34,773 nt of DNA, taken from the NCBI GenBank assembly GCA_026398235.1, contig JAPLTE010000075.1, positions 1-34,773 on the forward strand, written 5' to 3'. Source of the stretch: Verrucomicrobiota bacterium (lineage in GTDB: Bacteria; Verrucomicrobiota; Verrucomicrobiia; Chthoniobacterales; Chthoniobacteraceae). This document shows positions 14,779-22,625 of the stretch, one piece after another. How positions within the stretch are numbered: position 1 is the stretch's first letter; the number at the start of each line of letters is the position of its first letter. Under the pieces are notes generated by a model, which did no database searches, was not told the DNA's origin, and saw only the letters and a list, made by a program, of their open reading frames with translations. A program made the translations under genes and the position numbers.

Positions 14779-17373
14779 ATGTATACCCTAAACGAAAAAG
14801 TCGAGCCGATCAATGTAGCCGAGGAGATGTCCAAGTCGTTCCTCGATTACTCGATGTCTGTCATCATTTCCCGCGCGCTGCCGGATGCGCGCGACGGTTT
14901 AAAACCGTCGCAGCGCCGCATCCTCTACGCGATGCACGATCTCTCGCTCTTCCCCAACCGCCAGCATCGTAAGTGCGCCAAGATTTGCGGCGACACCAGC
15001 GGCAACTACCATCCCCACGGCGAAGCGGTCATTTACCCGACGCTCGTTCACATGGCCCAATCCTGGGCGATGCGCGATTGTCTCGTGGACGGCCAGGGGA
15101 ACTTCGGCTCGGTCGAAGGCGATCCGCCCGCCGCCATGCGGTACACCGAGGCCAAGATGACCCATTTGGGCGCGGCTTTGATGGACGACATGGACAAGGA
15201 CACCGTCGATTTCGTCCCCAACTACGACGAAACCCGCACGGAACCGACCGTGCTGCCCGCCGCATGGCCCAACCTGCTCGTCAACGGCGGCACCGGTATC
15301 GCCGTCGGCATGGCCACCAACATGCCGCCGCACAATTTGATGGAAGTCGTGGACGGCATCTGCGCGCAGATCGATGACCCGGACATCACCGTGGAAGGAT
15401 TGCGCCAGTTCGTCAAAGGCCCCGACTTCCCCACCGGCTGCACCATCTGCGGCACCGCGGGGATCAAGAATTACACCGAGAAAGGCCGCGGCAGCATCAA
15501 GGTGCGCGGCAAGGCGGGCGTCGAGGAGATCAAGGGCGGACGCGAACAGATCGTCATCACCGAGATTCCTTACAACGTCAACCGCGCGACGCTCGTGGAG
15601 CGGATCGCGGAACTCGTGAACGAAAAAACGCTCACCGAGATCAGCGCCATCCGCGACGAATCCGACGAGAACACGCGCGTGGTGATCGAGCTCAAGCGCG
15701 ACGGCAATCCCAAGGTCGTCATCAACAATCTCTACAAGCATACCTCTCTCGAAAGCTCCTTCTCGGTGACGATGCTCGCCATCGACCACGGGCGGCCGAA
15801 GCTCCTCTCGATCAAGGACGCCAACACCGCCTACATCGAGCACCGCCGCGAGGTCGTTCTGCGCCGCACCCGCTTTGAACTCCGCAAGGCCGAGGACCGC
15901 GCCGAGACGCTCGAAGGCTACCTGCTCGCGTTGGCGAACATGGATGATTTCATCAAAATCATCCGTGGCTCTTCCAACCGCGACGAAGCCAAGGTGAAGC
16001 TGCTCGCCTACGAATTTTCCAAAAAGAACGTCGAGAAACTCGGCATCCTCATTCGCAACGAAGCACGCCTCACCGACGGCATTTACCGCTTCAGCGAACA
16101 GCAGATCAACGCGATCCTTGACCTGCGCCTGTATCAATTGACCGGCCTCGAACGGGACAAGATCGAAGCCGAATACGCGGCGCTCATCGAGAAGATCAAA
16201 GATTTGCTCGATATCCTGGCCCGCGAAGCCCGCGTGCTTCAGATCATCAAAGACGAACTGCGCACGATCCAAGCCAAGTACGGCACACCGCGCCTCACGC
16301 AGATCGTTCCCGACGAAGGGGAGATGTCCCTCGAAGACCTGATCTCCAACGAAGGCACCATCATCACGATCACCCACAAGGGGTTCATCAAACGCACCGC
16401 CGTCAGCTCCTATCGCGCTCAGCGCCGGGGAGGCAAGGGCGTGCGCGGGATGATCACGCGCGAAGGCTCGACCGAGGAGGAGGAAGACGATTTCGTCGAG
16501 CACCTCTTCACCGCCACCACGCACGATTATTTGATGTTCTTCACGCAAACCGGGCGCTGCTACATCGAGCGCGTATACGAGATTCCCGAAATGGGCCGCG
16601 CCGCCAAGGGCCGTTCCATCGCGAACCTCCTGGAACTGCGCTCCGAAGAGCAGATCGCCGCGACCATTCGCATCCAGGCCAAGAGCTCCGGCACCGGCCC
16701 CGCCGCCATCGACAACACCTGGGATGACCAGTTGCACATCGTCTTTGTCACGCAGTCGGGCATCGTCAAAAAATCCAACCTCGGCGGATTCCAGAACATC
16801 CGCAAAGGCGGGCTCATCGCGATCAAGATCGAGGAGGGCGACCGCCTCATCGACGCGAACCTGACCACCGGCCAGAACGAAGTCGTCCTCATCACCAAGG
16901 GCGGCATGAGCCTGCGCTTCCACGAGGAAGAGCTCCGCGACCAAGGCCGCGACACGGTCGGCGTCTGGGGCATTCGGCCTGAGAAGGGCGACATCATCAT
17001 CGGCATGGCCATCGTAAACCCCGACGCGCAACTGCTCGTCGCGGGCGAAAACGGCATCGGCAAACGCACGCCGTTCGACGATTACCGCATCCAGGCGCGC
17101 GGCGGCAAAGGGATCATCACCATGAAAACCGGCGACAAAACCGGCGACGTGGTGGGCGCGCTGACCGTCACCGACAAGGACGAGCTCATGCTCATCACCA
17201 ACAAGGGACAGATGGTGCGCACCCGCGTGAAGGAAATCCGCGAGACCAGCCGCAATACGATGGGGGTCAAGCTCATCAACCTGCGCGATGGCGAGAAGCT
17301 GCAATGCATCGCCCCGGTCGTCGCCGACGAAGAGGAAGGCGAAACCACACCCGAGTTGCCGCTGGCGGAGTAA
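14779..17373 (+). CDS. gyrA: DNA gyrase subunit A
   Basis: This is the DNA breakage-reunion subunit of gyrase, 864 residues. The catalytic Tyr is at 122 (AAMRYTE), the same number as in E. coli, and Arg121 precedes it. The N-terminal breakage domain is complete. The C-terminal beta-pinwheel carries the GyrA box QRRGGKG near residue 550, needed for DNA wrapping, so this is gyrase rather than topoisomerase IV. In the quinolone-determining region, HPHGEAVIYPT gives Ala at position 83 and Pro at 87, where E. coli has Ser and Asp. The C-terminus is acidic. No Shine-Dalgarno precedes the ATG; array units end about 20 bases upstream. Confidence 0.98.
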   Translation: MYTLNEKVEPINVAEEMSKSFLDYSMSVIISRALPDARDGLKPSQRRILYAMHDLSLFPNRQHRKCAKICGDTSGNYHPHGEAVIYPTLVHMAQSWAMRDCLVDGQGNFGSVEGDPPAAMRYTEAKMTHLGAALMDDMDKDTVDFVPNYDETRTEPTVLPAAWPNLLVNGGTGIAVGMATNMPPHNLMEVVDGICAQIDDPDITVEGLRQFVKGPDFPTGCTICGTAGIKNYTEKGRGSIKVRGKAGVEEIKGGREQIVITEIPYNVNRATLVERIAELVNEKTLTEISAIRDESDENTRVVIELKRDGNPKVVINNLYKHTSLESSFSVTMLAIDHGRPKLLSIKDANTAYIEHRREVVLRRTRFELRKAEDRAETLEGYLLALANMDDFIKIIRGSSNRDEAKVKLLAYEFSKKNVEKLGILIRNEARLTDGIYRFSEQQINAILDLRLYQLTGLERDKIEAEYAALIEKIKDLLDILAREARVLQIIKDELRTIQAKYGTPRLTQIVPDEGEMSLEDLISNEGTIITITHKGFIKRTAVSSYRAQRRGGKGVRGMITREGSTEEEEDDFVEHLFTATTHDYLMFFTQTGRCYIERVYEIPEMGRAAKGRSIANLLELRSEEQIAATIRIQAKSSGTGPAAIDNTWDDQLHIVFVTQSGIVKKSNLGGFQNIRKGGLIAIKIEEGDRLIDANLTTGQNEVVLITKGGMSLRFHEEELRDQGRDTVGVWGIRPEKGDIIIGMAIVNPDAQLLVAGENGIGKRTPFDDYRIQARGGKGIITMKTGDKTGDVVGALTVTDKDELMLITNKGQMVRTRVKEIRETSRNTMGVKLINLRDGEKLQCIAPVVADEEEGETTPELPLAE

Positions 17374-17378
17374 GGTTC

Positions 17379-17590
17379 CTCGTTCCCAAACTCCATTTGG
17401 GACTGCCCTGCTGCGTAGCAGCTTCTCCTACGCGAAGCGCATTTTGCAGAGCCCCGCAGGGGATAACGCACTTGTCCCGGCAACTCTATTGCCGGGAACG
17501 GGGCGTGCAAACACAGCGAAGCGCAATCCCCCACCGCCGCAATGGAGTTGCGCCCAGCAATTGCGTTCCCAAATAGAATTTGGGAACGAG
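17379..17590. repeat. Palindromic repeat element with 12-bp terminal inverted repeats
   Basis: CTCGTTCCCAAA at 17379-17390 and TTTGGGAACGAG at 17579-17590 are perfect inverted termini. Each end folds on itself: TCCCAAA/TTTGGGA with a CTCCA loop on the left, TTCCCAAA/TTTGGGAA with a TAGAA loop on the right. In the middle, CCCGGCAA/TTGCCGGG pair around a CTCTA loop (17476-17496). The element begins six bases after the gyrA stop codon. It encodes nothing I can support and resembles non-autonomous miniature elements seen in several phyla. Confidence 0.85.
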
Positions 17591-17618
17591 AAAGTTTTGT
17601 GAATTCGTTGCGAGACTA

Positions 17619-17651
17619 GAAACCACGCCGGAACTGCCGCTGGCGGAGTAA
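17619..17651 (+). pseudogene. Second copy of the last ten gyrA codons plus stop
   Basis: These 33 bases translate to ETTPELPLAE followed by TAA, identical in protein sequence to the end of gyrA at 17341-17373. The DNA differs only at synonymous positions in four codons (Thr, Pro, Glu, Leu). It lies 278 bases downstream, just after the palindromic element. It has no start codon and is presumably a remnant. Confidence 0.8.
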
Positions 17652-18076
17652 GCGCAGAAAGGCACTGAGAACACTCGGCGGCCCCAAGGGGAAGGGGCCG
17701 CCGGTGCCCTCTTTGGTGAGCTGCGCCTGCCGGAGGGGAAAAGCGCAAGCGCCGCTCAAATCCGAAAGCAGCGTCGGAAGGGCTCCAGCCAACAACCTCT
17801 GAAAACTGGAGCCCTTCCTGCCGCCCAGGCCAGGAACAAACCAACGGGCCTGGCATCCTTGCCAAACACCGCATCCAAATTCGCAGGAACCGCTGCCCCA
17901 TGCGCCCGCCGGTTGTCCCCTTCGGGTGCAAAAACTGCCGCGCCTCCTTCTTCCATGGGCAAAATCGTAGCGGTTTGGGCAAACAATGAAAATCAGGTAA
18001 GCACGGTTGTTCCTATGAAGGGAAACCTGAAGGGGGGGGAAGCCCTTTTCTGCCAAAGAGCCCCTGGAAACGTGCG
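17652..18076. other. Gene-free stretch with two strong hairpins
   Basis: GGCGGCCCC/GGGGCCGCC at 17677-17702 (9-bp stem, 8-base loop) could act as a terminator after gyrA, although no T run follows. GGAAGGGCTCCAG at 17776-17788 pairs perfectly over 13 bp with 17806-17818, loop 17 bases. Minus-strand open frames here lack coding character. Confidence 0.5.
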
Positions 18077-18139
18077 TACGTAGATTGCCTAAACCGGAGG
18101 GCAAATTGTGTTGACCTAATTCGTTGAATTGCGTATTAA
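18077..18139 (+). promoter_or_regulatory. Promoter of the first PEP-CTERM gene, with upstream TACGTA palindrome
   Basis: TTGACC at 18111-18116, a 17-base spacer and TATTAA at 18134-18139 form a good sigma-70 promoter. The palindrome TACGTA lies at 18077-18082, 34 bases before the -35. The same arrangement with identical spacing precedes the second PEP-CTERM gene, which supports a functional operator or a conserved duplication. Confidence 0.65.
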
Positions 18140-18171
18140 AATCGTCATTAACAAGTAAAAGAAAGCGTCGT

Positions 18172-18933
18172 ATGTTCCAAAAAACCTTTATTGCCGCTCT
18201 CGCGCTTGCCTCTGCGGCTTTGGTGAGCACAGCTTCTGCGAATCTAATCGTCGCCATCGACAACACCGGAGCCAACGATCCGGTGAACATCAATAATCCG
18301 CGCGCCTGGAACTTCGGCGTGACTCAAGCGGGAGCAGATTATCTCGTCGCCAACGGCATCACCTTTGATTCCGCCTTGTTCGATGCCAAGCTCCATAAAG
18401 ACACCACGGCTCCGCTCGTGTTTTCGATCTACTCCGGGCTCGGCGGCAACGTGAACGGGAACCAACTATTGGCAAGCGTTAGCGCGCCTGCCAGCGAATT
18501 CAACCAGCAATACCTCGGTGGCCAAGGCAAACTCTTCTTGTTCGATCCCCAAACTTTTACCGAGGGCTACTACTCGGTGACGCTGACCAGCACCGCCCCG
18601 GACAAAGCGACGCAGGACTATTTCCTCAAGCAAGGCAAAATGGTGCTGGAGAACGCCGATGGCACAGCTTGGGGTTCCTCCTACTGGTTGCAAGACAGCG
18701 GCACAGGGAACGCTGGAGCCACCTTTAACGGCACTCCAATCAGCGGCGGCGGGGATGGCACCGGCATTATACACCATGCAGGGGATGGCAGCGGCGGCGG
18801 CGGAGCCTTCGGCGGTGGAGGCGGAATTGCACTCGCCCCCGAACCCAGTTCGATGTTGGGGATGGCCGCCTTTGCAGGAATTTCACTCGGAGGAGCGCTT
18901 GTGCGCCGCATCCGCAAGCAATGGGCCGCCTAA
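18172..18933 (+). CDS. PEP-CTERM sorting domain protein, paralogue 1
   Basis: The 253-residue exported protein has a signal peptide cleaved probably after residue 23 (ASA). A beta-rich mature domain begins NLIVAIDNTGANDPVN, with PLVFSIYSGLGG and a YYSVTLTSTAPDKAT block. A Gly-rich linker leads to the C-terminal sorting signal: APEPSS at about 222, a hydrophobic helix and the basic end RRIRKQ. Such tails are recognised and cut by exosortase, delivering the protein to the surface or extracellular matrix; no exosortase is in this window. The start at 18172 begins the signal peptide. About 1.1 kb downstream is a close paralogue. The function of the mature domain is unknown. Confidence 0.9.
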   Translation: MFQKTFIAALALASAALVSTASANLIVAIDNTGANDPVNINNPRAWNFGVTQAGADYLVANGITFDSALFDAKLHKDTTAPLVFSIYSGLGGNVNGNQLLASVSAPASEFNQQYLGGQGKLFLFDPQTFTEGYYSVTLTSTAPDKATQDYFLKQGKMVLENADGTAWGSSYWLQDSGTGNAGATFNGTPISGGGDGTGIIHHAGDGSGGGGAFGGGGGIALAPEPSSMLGMAAFAGISLGGALVRRIRKQWAA

Positions 18934-18957
18934 AGGCCCCCGTCAGCAAAAGCAGCC

Positions 18958-18990
18958 GAGAGCACGCTCGCAGGACTTGAACCTGCGAGC
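18958..18990 (-). pseudogene. Truncated tRNA-Arg 3' half (T arm and acceptor strand)
   Basis: Bases 18958-18990 match the T arm and 3' flank of the intact tRNA-Arg at 20035-20108, in the same orientation, including the CAGGACTTGAACCTG core. The D and anticodon arms are missing. Changes outside the original stem lengthen the T-arm hairpin to 9 bp (GCTCGCAGG/CCTGCGAGC, 18966-18990), so it may now serve as a terminator for the PEP-CTERM gene ending at 18933. Confidence 0.75.
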
Positions 18991-19193
18991 GGCTTCATTT
19001 TCGGTCCAGACGCCTCGATTTTGACTTGGCCAGGTTCAGGGAATCGCCAAGGCCATCGACTGCTCCCTAAATCGCGCCCGAAAGTCGCGATTCACCTCTA
19101 TCGGAAAACGCTCCCGAGAGCTTCCTCGCTGAGCAAAAAAACCGTCATCCATCCACGAAAAGGCACCTTTCCCTGCCTGATTTACCCCAAACC
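18991..19193. other. Gene-free spacer between PEP-CTERM paralogues
   Basis: Between the tRNA remnant and the second promoter there is no open frame with coding character and no strong hairpin. I see nothing supportable here. Confidence 0.4.
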
Positions 19194-19256
19194 TACGTAT
19201 AATTGAGTAGGTTAAATAAAAATATTGTTGACGCGGTTCGCCGTTTTGCGTATTTT
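19194..19256 (+). promoter_or_regulatory. Promoter of the second PEP-CTERM gene, with upstream TACGTA palindrome
   Basis: TTGACG at 19228-19233, a 17-base spacer and TATTTT at 19251-19256. TACGTA is at 19194-19199, exactly 34 bases before the -35 as in the first copy. Bases between the two elements are poorly conserved, whereas the TTGCGTATT around the -10 is kept. Confidence 0.65.
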
Positions 19257-19289
19257 CCTCCCATCAACCAGCAAAAAGAAAGAAATCGT

Positions 19290-19991
19290 ATGTTCAAAAA
19301 AACCTTTTTCGCCGCTCTAGCCGTCGCCTCATTGGCTTTGGTCAGCACAGCTTCTGCGAATCTGATCGTCGCCATCGACAACACCGGAGCCAACGATCCG
19401 GTGAACATCGATAATCCGCGCGCCTGGAACTTCGGAGTGACTCAAGCCGGTGCCGATTATTTCACCACCAACGGGATTTCCTTCGACTCCGCGATGTTCG
19501 ACGCGAAGCTCCATAACGACACCACCGCACCTCTCGTTTTCTCGATCTACTCCGGGCTCGGCGGTGACGTGAACGGCAACACGCTGCTGAGGCAGGTTAC
19601 GGTGGGAGCCGACCAATTCAACCAACAATACCTGGGCGGCCAAGGCAGAATTTTCACCTACACCCCGGGCCTTGTTTTCGACGCAGGCTACTACTCGGTG
19701 ACGCTGACCAGCACCGCGCCCGACAAAGCCACGGAAGATTACTTCCTCAAGCAAGGAAAACTCACGCTGGAAGATGCGGATGGGACTGCACTGGATTCTT
19801 CCTACTGGTTGCAAGACCAAGGCACCGGCCACGCTGGTTCCACCTTCAACGGCAGCGGCGACATTGGTGGTGGCGGAGGCACAATGGCGCTGGCTCCCGA
19901 GCCCAGCTCGATGTTGGGCATGGCCGCCTTTGCGGGAGTTTCCTTCGGAGGAGCGCTCATGCGCCGCATCCGCAAGCAAGTCGCCGCCTAA
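19290..19991 (+). CDS. PEP-CTERM sorting domain protein, paralogue 2
   Basis: The 233-residue protein is a tandem paralogue of the preceding gene. The signal peptide (cleavage after ASA near 23) and NLIVAIDNTGANDPVN start are nearly identical. The middle diverges (QVTVGADQFNQQYLGG, FTYTPGLVFDAGYYS) and the Gly-rich linker is about 20 residues shorter. The C-terminus has the exosortase signal APEPSS, a hydrophobic helix and RRIRKQ. The start at 19290 begins the signal peptide and is preceded by a weak AAAGAAAG. Both copies are intact with preserved promoters, which argues that both are expressed. Function is unknown beyond surface sorting. Confidence 0.9.
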   Translation: MFKKTFFAALAVASLALVSTASANLIVAIDNTGANDPVNIDNPRAWNFGVTQAGADYFTTNGISFDSAMFDAKLHNDTTAPLVFSIYSGLGGDVNGNTLLRQVTVGADQFNQQYLGGQGRIFTYTPGLVFDAGYYSVTLTSTAPDKATEDYFLKQGKLTLEDADGTALDSSYWLQDQGTGHAGSTFNGSGDIGGGGGTMALAPEPSSMLGMAAFAGVSFGGALMRRIRKQVAA

Positions 19992-20034
19992 AGCGCAGCG
20001 CAGCACAGCCGCAGCAGCCAAGAGCGAAAGAGAG

Positions 20035-20108
20035 CACGCCCGGCAGGACTTGAACCTGCGACCCACGGATTAGAAATCCGTTGCTCTATCCAGCTGAGCT
20101 ACGGGCGC
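20035..20108 (-). tRNA. tRNA-Arg, anticodon TCT
   Basis: On the minus strand the sequence begins GCGCCCGTAGCTCAGC and folds into a complete cloverleaf. The acceptor GCGCCCG pairs with CGGGCGT (one G-U), the D arm has GCTC/GAGC, the anticodon stem ACGGA/TCCGT encloses loop TTTCTAA, and the T arm holds TTCAAGT. The anticodon TCT reads AGA (Arg). CCA is not encoded. It lies convergent to the upstream PEP-CTERM gene, and partial copies occur at 18958-18990 and 22800-22831. Confidence 0.96.
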
Positions 20109-20132
20109 GTTGGAAAAAATTTTGGAAAGGAT

Positions 20133-20154
20133 GAGCCCGTCCCCGGACGGGCTC
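20133..20154. terminator. Near-perfect palindrome, possible bidirectional terminator
   Basis: GAGCCCGTCC at 20133-20142 pairs with GGACGGGCTC at 20145-20154. The stem is strong, but neither side has a clear T run. It could end transcription from the PEP-CTERM gene side, or insulate the tRNA. Confidence 0.45.
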
Positions 20155-20634
20155 AATTACTTTGCCAGCCCCTTCGCCCACAGCAAGCACGATTTGAGGG
20201 GAGCAAACAGGAGACGGTTCTTCGGGAACTCGGAAAGATTTTTTATCAGGAAATCAGGAAACCAAGAAACCAGGAAATGAAATGCCGGACGGGTGGCCGG
20301 GGGGCGTCAGCTCTGGCGAACCACGGACTGTGCCGATCAATGGTTGCGGGTGTTGGAATGGGCGGAACGGATGCCAACTCCGGGTCGGGCTCTGCTGGTG
20401 GAACGTCCGTTTTGACAGCCATGCCGAAATCTAAGCAGAGGCAAAGGCAATACCCGGAATAGCTAGGTGATAGCCGCGGCGAGGATCGGAAGTGGTGGAG
20501 GAATAGGGCTTGGGCCTAGCTATACCTCGAGTTCGTTCACGGATCCATCAAACAGAAATATAGTGACGGTTTATCTTGAAAACGCTCAGCCGCCAAGTCA
20601 CTATGTTACTCCTAAGTCTTTAGAAGACCGGATT
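20155..20634. repeat. Gap with an 8-bp-unit array (ATCAGGAA type) before the RelA/SpoT-domain gene
   Basis: Four contiguous 8-bp units lie at 20245-20276: ATCAGGAA twice, then ACCAAGAA and ACCAGGAA. They are the reverse complement of the TTCCTGAT units near 9000. The rest of the gap has no credible gene. A GTG-initiated extension of the next gene (from 20467) is open but has unusual composition and no ribosome-binding site. Confidence 0.7.
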
Positions 20635-21690
20635 ATGGCTTTTGCGAAAATTCAATATTCAAAACAAAAAGTGAACCGAGCTGGTGAAATCATAGCAAAC
20701 CAGTCGATGTTTTCACCGCAGGAGCATGCGTGGGCAAATGAAGTACTTGCAAACTGGCGGGCGTGCCATGGTTATCCGATTAACACTTTTCAAGCAACTT
20801 TGCGTGATAGACTTAAATCTGCCGGCCTCCAGGCTATTGTAGCGCAACGCCTCAAACGAACACCGTCCATCATTTTGAAGTTGCAACGTTTCGAAGGAAT
20901 GAAGCTAGCACGAATGCAAGATATAGGCGGCCTAAGGGCGGTGCTTAAAAATGTTGCCGCTGTCAGAATAATCGAATCAACCTATCGCAACAAGCCTTTA
21001 AAACACATACTCCGTGATTCAGATGATTATATTACTTCCCCCAAGGAAGATGGTTACCGTGGGATTCATTTGATTTATCATTACAAAAACGAAAGAGTTC
21101 CTGATTACGATGGATTATCTTTGGAATTACAGATCAGAACCCTACTACAGCATGCTTGGGCCACTGCCGTCGAAACCATGGGAACATTTCTCGGCCAAGC
21201 CCTGAAATCAGGCCGAGGAGATTATGAATGGCGTAGTTTTTTCGCAAAAGCAGGCGCGGCTCTCGCTGTTGTGGAAAAGACGGCATCCGTGCCTGGCTTT
21301 GAAAAAAAGTCTAAGGATGAAGTCTTTGCAGAGGTAGCAGATGCAGAACAGGAACTTCGAGTATTGGAGAAGTTGCGAGGGTTTGCTATTGCAGCAGACA
21401 AAATTACAACATTCCGAGGCCAAGGAGCTTATCATTTGGTTGTATTAGATTCCAGAGAGCGCACGGTTTCAATTCGACCGTTTCCCAAGTCCCGCTTGGA
21501 ACAAGCCAACTTAGAATACAGTGAAATTGAGGAACGCACCAAATCTGGAGAACTCATAGAGGCTGTTTTGGTTTCGGCCGGACCAGTGGACGCCTTGAGA
21601 AAGGCTTATCCAAACTACTTTTTGGACACACAAGGGTTTGTGGCAGAAATTGAGCGTGTTATTAAAATTGCCCGAAAGAGCAACGGATAG
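20635..21690 (+). CDS. RelA/SpoT synthetase-domain protein (small alarmone synthetase-like)
   Basis: The 351-residue protein carries a (p)ppGpp-synthetase-type nucleotidyl domain: RMQDIGGLRAVL, the substrate-loop region DDYITSPKEDGYRGIHLIYHY and LELQIRTLLQHAWATAVE. There is no HD hydrolase or TGS/ACT domain, so it is a single-function synthetase-like enzyme. It could make alarmones or, like some toxic relatives, pyrophosphorylate tRNA; sequence alone does not decide. A C-terminal domain ends with ALRKAYPNYFLDTQGF. I choose ATG 20635 because MAFAKIQYSKQKVNRAG resembles the usual start of this family; an open extension reaches GTG 20467. The gene is clearly AT-richer than its neighbours and stands alone beside a tRNA, suggesting transfer. 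Confidence 0.87.
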   Translation: MAFAKIQYSKQKVNRAGEIIANQSMFSPQEHAWANEVLANWRACHGYPINTFQATLRDRLKSAGLQAIVAQRLKRTPSIILKLQRFEGMKLARMQDIGGLRAVLKNVAAVRIIESTYRNKPLKHILRDSDDYITSPKEDGYRGIHLIYHYKNERVPDYDGLSLELQIRTLLQHAWATAVETMGTFLGQALKSGRGDYEWRSFFAKAGAALAVVEKTASVPGFEKKSKDEVFAEVADAEQELRVLEKLRGFAIAADKITTFRGQGAYHLVVLDSRERTVSIRPFPKSRLEQANLEYSEIEERTKSGELIEAVLVSAGPVDALRKAYPNYFLDTQGFVAEIERVIKIARKSNG

Positions 21691-21881: not shown

Positions 21882-22625
21882 TTATGCGGTTTGCGGAGCG
21901 GTGACGGCCCGGGAGGATTTGAACACAAAGCGTTGGCGCAACGTGCTGAACGCCATCGGGATGCTCAGCGCAAGGAGCGCCCAAATACTGCCCGGCTCGG
22001 GAGCCAGGGCCAGGTTCCCTGTTCTGCCGAAAGCCACATCATCGAACTCGAAAGCCACGGCGCCAGAGCTTGCGACCACTTTCGTAAATGCCGTGGGCGA
22101 CGTGACGTTCACATAGGTGGTGCCGTTCAATCCCTGGTTGCCCATGCTGACCGACTCGGCAAAGTTCGAACCCGTAACCGTGCCGAGGTTATTATTTGCC
22201 GCGTCATAAAATGTCAGAGAGTTGTAGGAATCCACCGAACCCCAAAGGAGTCCAAAATAGTTCTGCGGAGTTGCAAAGTTGAATGTCGCAGAACCCCCGC
22301 CATTGAGAGCCAAGTAACGGGTGGCATCGGGGCCATTGTTCGGCGTTTCCCCAAAAAAAGCCGCAGTCGCGCCGGAGTAGTAAGGGGGCGCCCCGCTATT
22401 GAGGAAGGCGTTATTAGCAGAAAGGGTGACATAGGAGGGCAGACCTGCATTAAAATTCACCAGCGTAGCGCCGCTTAGTGTGGGGATGCCGCCGATCTGA
22501 CTGGTCACAATCAGGGTGGCGCGCGCAGAGGAACTGAAGCTGCAAACACCCAAAAAAGCAGCGCCGATCCCAGCAAGGAGATGCAGCGATGCGTATTTGC
22601 GCGTAGTAAAAGCGGATGTTTTCAT
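21882..22625 (-). CDS. PEP-CTERM sorting domain protein, unrelated mature domain
   Basis: The 247-residue exported protein has an N-terminal signal with a long n-region, likely cleaved after SARA near residue 36. A beta-rich, Asn/Gly-rich mature domain follows (GGGSATFNFATPQNYFGLLWGS, then VAFEFDDVAFG). The C-terminal exosortase signal APEPGS precedes a hydrophobic helix and the basic LRQRF. The mature region resembles cyanobacterial and verrucomicrobial exosortase-dependent surface proteins in general style and is not similar to the two tandem paralogues. On the minus strand TTGACA (22684-22689) lies upstream, and TACGTA (22653-22658) also occurs here, closer to the start codon. The ATG at 22625 begins the signal peptide. 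Confidence 0.87.
   Translation of the reverse strand: MKTSAFTTRKYASLHLLAGIGAAFLGVCSFSSSARATLIVTSQIGGIPTLSGATLVNFNAGLPSYVTLSANNAFLNSGAPPYYSGATAAFFGETPNNGPDATRYLALNGGGSATFNFATPQNYFGLLWGSVDSYNSLTFYDAANNNLGTVTGSNFAESVSMGNQGLNGTTYVNVTSPTAFTKVVASSGAVAFEFDDVAFGRTGNLALAPEPGSIWALLALSIPMAFSTLRQRFVFKSSRAVTAPQTA

Follow-up and report, generated by a model that had tools for sequence, protein, structure and literature searches.

A Duplicated PEP-CTERM-Type Gene and a Fragment of tRNA-Arg in a Member of the Chthoniobacteraceae: A Probable Tandem Duplication with Its Break Inside the tRNA Gene and a Candidate Terminator

Introduction

In the account given in PMC9897764, the usual cause of partial tRNA genes is the integration of mobile elements. 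Tandem duplications that include tRNA genes are reported for Pseudomonas fluorescens SBW25 in PMC7661048. A narrow literature search returned no close match for a tRNA fragment serving as a terminator, which does not prove its absence from print.

The locus presented here occupies positions 18077–20108 of a stretch of 34,773 nt (hereafter, the window), contig JAPLTE010000075.1 of assembly GCA_026398235.1 (Verrucomicrobiota bacterium, Chthoniobacteraceae), a 2.58-Mb assembly that is 94.95% complete. It contains two paralogous genes, A and B, the second converging with an intact tRNA-Arg gene and the first followed by a piece of the same tRNA. On balance, the sequence makes it probable that the locus arose by a tandem duplication that broke off within the T arm of tRNA-Arg, and that copy A thereby gained a candidate terminator.

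The Two Paralogous Genes

Copy A (18172..18933, plus strand) is an open reading frame for a PEP-CTERM-type protein of 253 aa, and copy B (19290..19991, plus strand) encodes a similar protein of 233 aa; the separation of 1118 bases given in the preliminary description was borne out. Both are secreted-type proteins with a PEP-CTERM-like end, in which APEPSSMLG...RRIRK is visible. Against the TIGR02595 profile, whose cut-off is 16 bits, copy A scores 15.6 bits, just below it, and copy B 16.1 bits, just above. Exosortase (PF09721) is found above its cut-off at three places in the same genome and in all five genomes of the genus; one of the 14 control genomes, an archaeon, matched as well. Another exosortase-dependent surface protein is encoded on the minus strand at 21882-22625 (NF050191, Npun_F0296 family, 62.4 bits with a cut-off of 29), and it belongs to a different family than A and B. 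Beyond the tRNA-Arg gene, at 20467-21690, lies the gene of a RelA/SpoT-domain protein (PF04607, 58.8 bits).

The two copies show 79% identity across 232 aligned codons, with dS of 0.66 and dN of 0.15, and differ at 43 of 110 four-fold sites. Because of this number of silent differences the repeated assembly of one sequence was rejected, and an assembly error was set aside by inference. The best window of 100 bases contains 97 identities, a value reached in none of 5000 codon-column permutations, and the longest identical run, 45 bases at 18247-18291, was equalled in 50 of 5000. When only the codons of unchanged residues were considered, 45 of 5000 permutations gave a run of identical codons as long as the longest one observed. 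Gene conversion therefore seems to have acted between A and B, so dS is not usable as a clock. In a tree of six sequences the two copies group together against the homologues of genome G004 and a third homologue, C102, in the window's own genome, with a support of 98, to which gene conversion could have added.

The tRNA-Arg Remnant and the Extent of the Repeat

The intact tRNA-Arg(TCT) gene, convergent with copy B, lies on the minus strand at 20034..20108 (ARAGORN; Rfam RF00005, 69.9 bits), and between 17300 and 20500 tRNA was the only known RNA family to exceed its gathering score. Behind copy A, a remnant of this gene at 18958..18988, also on the minus strand and thus in direct orientation to the intact one, comprises the T arm, the 3' acceptor strand and about four flanking bases. 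Aligned to 20030-20061 it is identical in 30 of 31 ungapped columns, with one gap; a sequence search also recovered it (18962-18988, 93%, E 3.1e-4). The preliminary description was thus right that copy A is followed by the T arm and 3' flank of this tRNA, and what it called the 3' half is indeed a 3' piece of the tRNA, albeit well short of a half, with only bases 48-75, or 28 of 75. The exact 17-mer core of the T arm, GCAGGACTTGAACCTGC, occurs at two places in the entire assembly, the remnant and the intact gene. With up to two mismatches allowed it occurs at five places including these two (the reversed pattern, used as a control, at none); of the other three, one lies in a tRNA-Pro gene (L008) and two (L007, L009) lie outside any tRNA found by ARAGORN.

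The similarity of the two copies is collinear and extends to both sides of the genes. It sets in about 70 bases upstream of each ATG, where the region before copy A (18103..18171, plus strand) resembles that before copy B (19220..19289, plus strand) with z of 5.7 and none of 1000 shuffles as good. Further upstream, 18053-18102 and 19170-19219 are alike only at the level of chance (of 1000 shuffles, 519 scored as well in global alignment and 142 in local alignment), so that matching upstream regions, as noted earlier, are confirmed from 18103, whereas a start at 18077 is not supported. The region before copy B contains a promoter-like TTGACG-17-TATTTT at 19228-19256. Before copy A, TTGACC and TATTAA separated by 17 bases can be read by eye, and the promoter scan gave another site, 18148-18176; in all, the scan returned two promoter-like sites, with 1.1 expected from shuffles. 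Downstream, the stretches from stop codon to T arm match with z of 7.5 and none of 1000 shuffles as good, a signal that stems from the remnant itself, as the stretches between stop codon and remnant (24 bases in A, 38 in B) give z of 1.1 with 286 of 1000 shuffles as good. The T arm begins 36 bases behind the stop codon of A and 51 behind that of B, in the same order in both copies, and past it the similarity stops at once (z 0.1).

The spacer that leads from the remnant to the region before copy B (18989..19219) is unlike the DNA upstream of copy A: its 231 bases, compared with 17864-18102 in search of a novel joint, gave no match (z 0.4, 382 of 1000 shuffles as good). A third remnant to the left of copy A was not found at up to two mismatches, and by local alignment the best candidate in 17374-18102 lies on the other strand, with 34 of 300 shuffles as good. 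Thus, of the proposal that the duplicated unit ended inside the tRNA gene, the sharp end in the T arm and the collinear copies hold, whereas the left end was not located. Pieces of the flanks on both sides match dispersed repeats, which makes later insertions or losses there credible. Within the spacer, at about 19070-19097, is a short dispersed hairpin repeat, AATCGCG...CGCGATT, with similar copies at several sites in the window's genome, G002 and G004. On the other side, pieces of 17374-18171 have many matches in all five genomes of the genus, at least 23 to 68 in each, the arms of the element described below being counted apart.

The Hairpin on the T Arm

The remnant forms a hairpin of 10 perfect pairs at 18965..18991 (plus strand), detected by scan and by folding and followed by GCTTCATTTT, in place of the 5-pair T stem of the tRNA; the gain in pairing noticed earlier is therefore real. 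Eight of the 10 pairs are G-C, and the 7-base T loop is retained. The fold of 18953-19006 reaches -30.8 kcal/mol (z -6.2, none of 200 shuffles as good), a wider one, 18934-19010, gives z of -2.95 (2 of 200), and the hairpin by itself amounts to -18.7 kcal/mol. Relative to tRNA-Arg, the left arm has undergone one deletion and one substitution, and the longer stem requires both. With the right arm of the remnant, the left arm as it stands in the tRNA pairs at -10.1 kcal/mol and the observed one at -18.7. When one deletion was combined with one substitution in the left arm, a single version of the 108 tried gained five further pairs, and random flanks do so in 0.7% of draws, or 2.1% with one base skippable. 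Such figures speak against chance as the source of the longer stem.

The GCTTCATTTT tail has six T in 10 bases, broken and beginning after GC, and is a weaker T stretch than the seven consecutive T behind one of the G004 homologues. The listing of the hairpin in the terminator scan, which asks for at least five T within an 8-base window, means little by itself, because the 6 sites found in 17380-20470 compare with 5.3 in shuffles. The position and structure of the hairpin nevertheless make it a plausible candidate terminator of copy A. Between copy B and tRNA-Arg no hairpin was found. Beyond the tRNA gene, in its 5' flank, another 10-pair hairpin is given by the scan at 20132..20155 (plus strand), a possible read-through end for copy B, whose transcript might run antisense through tRNA-Arg up to it.

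Related Loci

The copy B protein was searched in overlapping sets of 97, 40 and 213 genomes, the last made up of members of the order. At E <= 1e-15, three of the 213 contain matches, namely the window's own genome, G004 and, distantly, G093, the last seen in the searches of 97 and 213 genomes; a scan of the contigs of named genomes with the same protein gave no relative. In the comparison with one-copy relatives advised by the preliminary description, no single gene beside tRNA-Arg was found among the 213 genomes of the order, and G002, the nearest relative in the analysis, carries the tRNA but shows neither the gene nor the remnant. In G002 the C-terminal part of gyrA is 98% identical to that of the window, and about 140 bases behind it the same tRNA recurs, flank included, at 94% over 175 bases; no homologue of A or B at E <= 1e-10 and no remnant were found there. 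The 5' flank of the tRNA, which bears the hairpin of 20132-20155, sits in G002 between gyrA and the tRNA. The G002 tRNA reads in the direction of gyrA, opposite to its orientation in the window (20032-20206), and this difference in the orientation of tRNA-Arg and its 5' flank corresponds to an inversion or relocation in the lineage of either G002 or the window. Matches to gyrA were found in 36 genomes, and in the 30 loci scanned with up to 1.5 kb of flank a tRNA was seen at that of G002 only; the window's own locus in this set stops short of its tRNA. In the window, the last 34 bases of gyrA (17341-17374) are repeated at 17619-17652 (88%), past an element (17376-17593) whose inverted arms measure 27 bases, and by eye the second gyrA tail is nearer to the G002 gyrA end just past the stop codon.

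The two homologues of G004 lie away from tRNA-Arg; in the stretches fetched, ARAGORN gave a tRNA-Pro about 3.8 kb from one of them and none near the other. Both are followed by hairpin-plus-T terminators, of -24.7 and -22.7 kcal/mol. The latter value, for locus L013, comes from a shifted fold window (z -3.85), the first one having bisected the hairpin (z 0.6). Past the stop codon of the third homologue, C102, no hairpin above shuffles was found (z -0.6 and -0.9).

Origin of the Locus

Tandem duplication is preferred because the copies are collinear, the repeat ends in the T arm, no outer remnant was found, and in G002 the tRNA comes with no such gene and no remnant. Taken by itself it appears quite likely from these data, and it is the best explanation in that it would account by one event for more than the others do, yet a second is needed for the 231 unmatched bases of the spacer. 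A unit starting upstream of 18103 would predict a match in these bases, and one starting at about 18103 would imply a later insertion. From the arrangement we infer the following order. At the start, a PEP-CTERM-type gene would have faced the 3' end of tRNA-Arg(UCU), the two being convergent. Duplication in tandem would then have taken in the gene, its promoter, its short 3' UTR and, next to these, 28 bases from the 3' end of the tRNA gene, with the break on the right falling within the T arm, which is by nature a hairpin. The tRNA would have stayed whole at the outer copy, and the inner end would have retained the remnant alone, now between A and B. In its left arm the remnant has one base lost and another changed relative to the tRNA, so that it forms 10 base pairs with the right arm. 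Presumably the copy A message ends, most likely, at the remnant hairpin, and the copy B transcript would run into the tRNA antisense, perhaps stopping at the hairpin beyond.

As to the hairpin, it is possible, and put forward here tentatively, that the T arm, read antisense, became a working terminator through the break of the duplication, and that selection lengthened its stem from 5 to 10 pairs. Within the duplication reading it is likewise conceivable, though short of probable, that the longer hairpin came about as a by-product of mutation, through a template switch that copied the right arm of the T-arm palindrome into the left in one step with no selection involved. The deletion and the substitution both fall in the left arm and both match the right arm, and a process of template switching by which imperfect inverted repeats become even is described (PMC7202029, PMC8604942); on the other hand, the hairpin stands at the place expected of a terminator with a short T-containing stretch behind it, and the two G004 homologues carry terminators at the equivalent place. 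Selection for a terminator and a one-step template-switch correction predict the same stem pattern, and one sequence cannot separate them. The by-product explanation bears on the hairpin alone and is compatible with a tandem duplication; the terminator role would then perhaps be absent. A duplication with an idle remnant has against it that the remnant is better kept than the synonymous sites. Under a model, the chance that 25 or more of the 26 tRNA columns are identical is 0.003 at dS of 0.66, 0.015 at 0.51 and 0.08 at 0.34, with 5 columns taken as outside and 26 as inside the tRNA (ARAGORN's ends would give 4 and 27). Any one of selection, conversion and a younger age of the remnant can explain this preservation.

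Two other histories concern the fragment itself. It could be the scar of an attachment site, site-specific integration at the 3' end of the tRNA having, once or twice, brought in the gene and left the fragment, and a partial tRNA copy at the far end of an element is the usual mark of integration as presented in PMC9897764. The 31-base island is better preserved than its surroundings, and the similarity to G002 stops at the tRNA 3' end. Nevertheless, such a scar is improbable here: only about 1 kb separates the repeats, with copy B, which has no Pfam match, as the sole plausible gene; no integrase or transposase was found among nine other proteins of the window, the part of its proteins that was scanned; the repeat is placed alike with respect to both genes, which would call for two integrations; and the outer repeat expected to the left of copy A was not found, although an old one could have decayed. 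The genes could also have been duplicated earlier by another route, the tRNA end being copied to A later by conversion from the tail of B. This would fit the signs of conversion on the pair, that is, the 97-of-100 window (0/5000) and the 45-base run (50/5000), as well as a remnant better preserved than synonymous sites, but it takes two events, and the conversion must stop in the T arm and yet leave unaltered the weakly similar bases that separate stop codon and remnant, and we consider it unlikely.

Comparison with Known Systems

The overall event, a neat one, would be fairly ordinary. As in the quasipalindrome template-switch mutations described in PMC7202029, an imperfect inverted repeat has been perfected by linked changes in one arm, the difference from the cases given there being that the event is deduced from one locus. 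With intrinsic (rho-independent) terminators the locus shares a G+C-rich 10-pair hairpin soon after the stop codon and a T-containing tail, and it differs from them in having a tRNA T arm as its base, a 7-base loop and a weak T tail. If true, the reading offers a readable case of how a structured part of an adjacent gene can yield a terminator in a single step. The large tandem duplications of P. fluorescens SBW25, in the description of PMC7661048, also involve a tRNA gene; here the unit measures about 0.9 kb and is old, and since its end lies within the tRNA gene, no extra tRNA was made. With the integration-derived partial tRNA genes, as PMC9897764 describes them, the locus has in common a 3' tRNA piece in direct repeat with the intact gene, whereas here it is a host gene that is duplicated, and no mobile gene or outer repeat was found. 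Should the duplication reading be true, it calls for caution, as a 3' tRNA fragment near an intact tRNA gene is not necessarily the scar of an integration.
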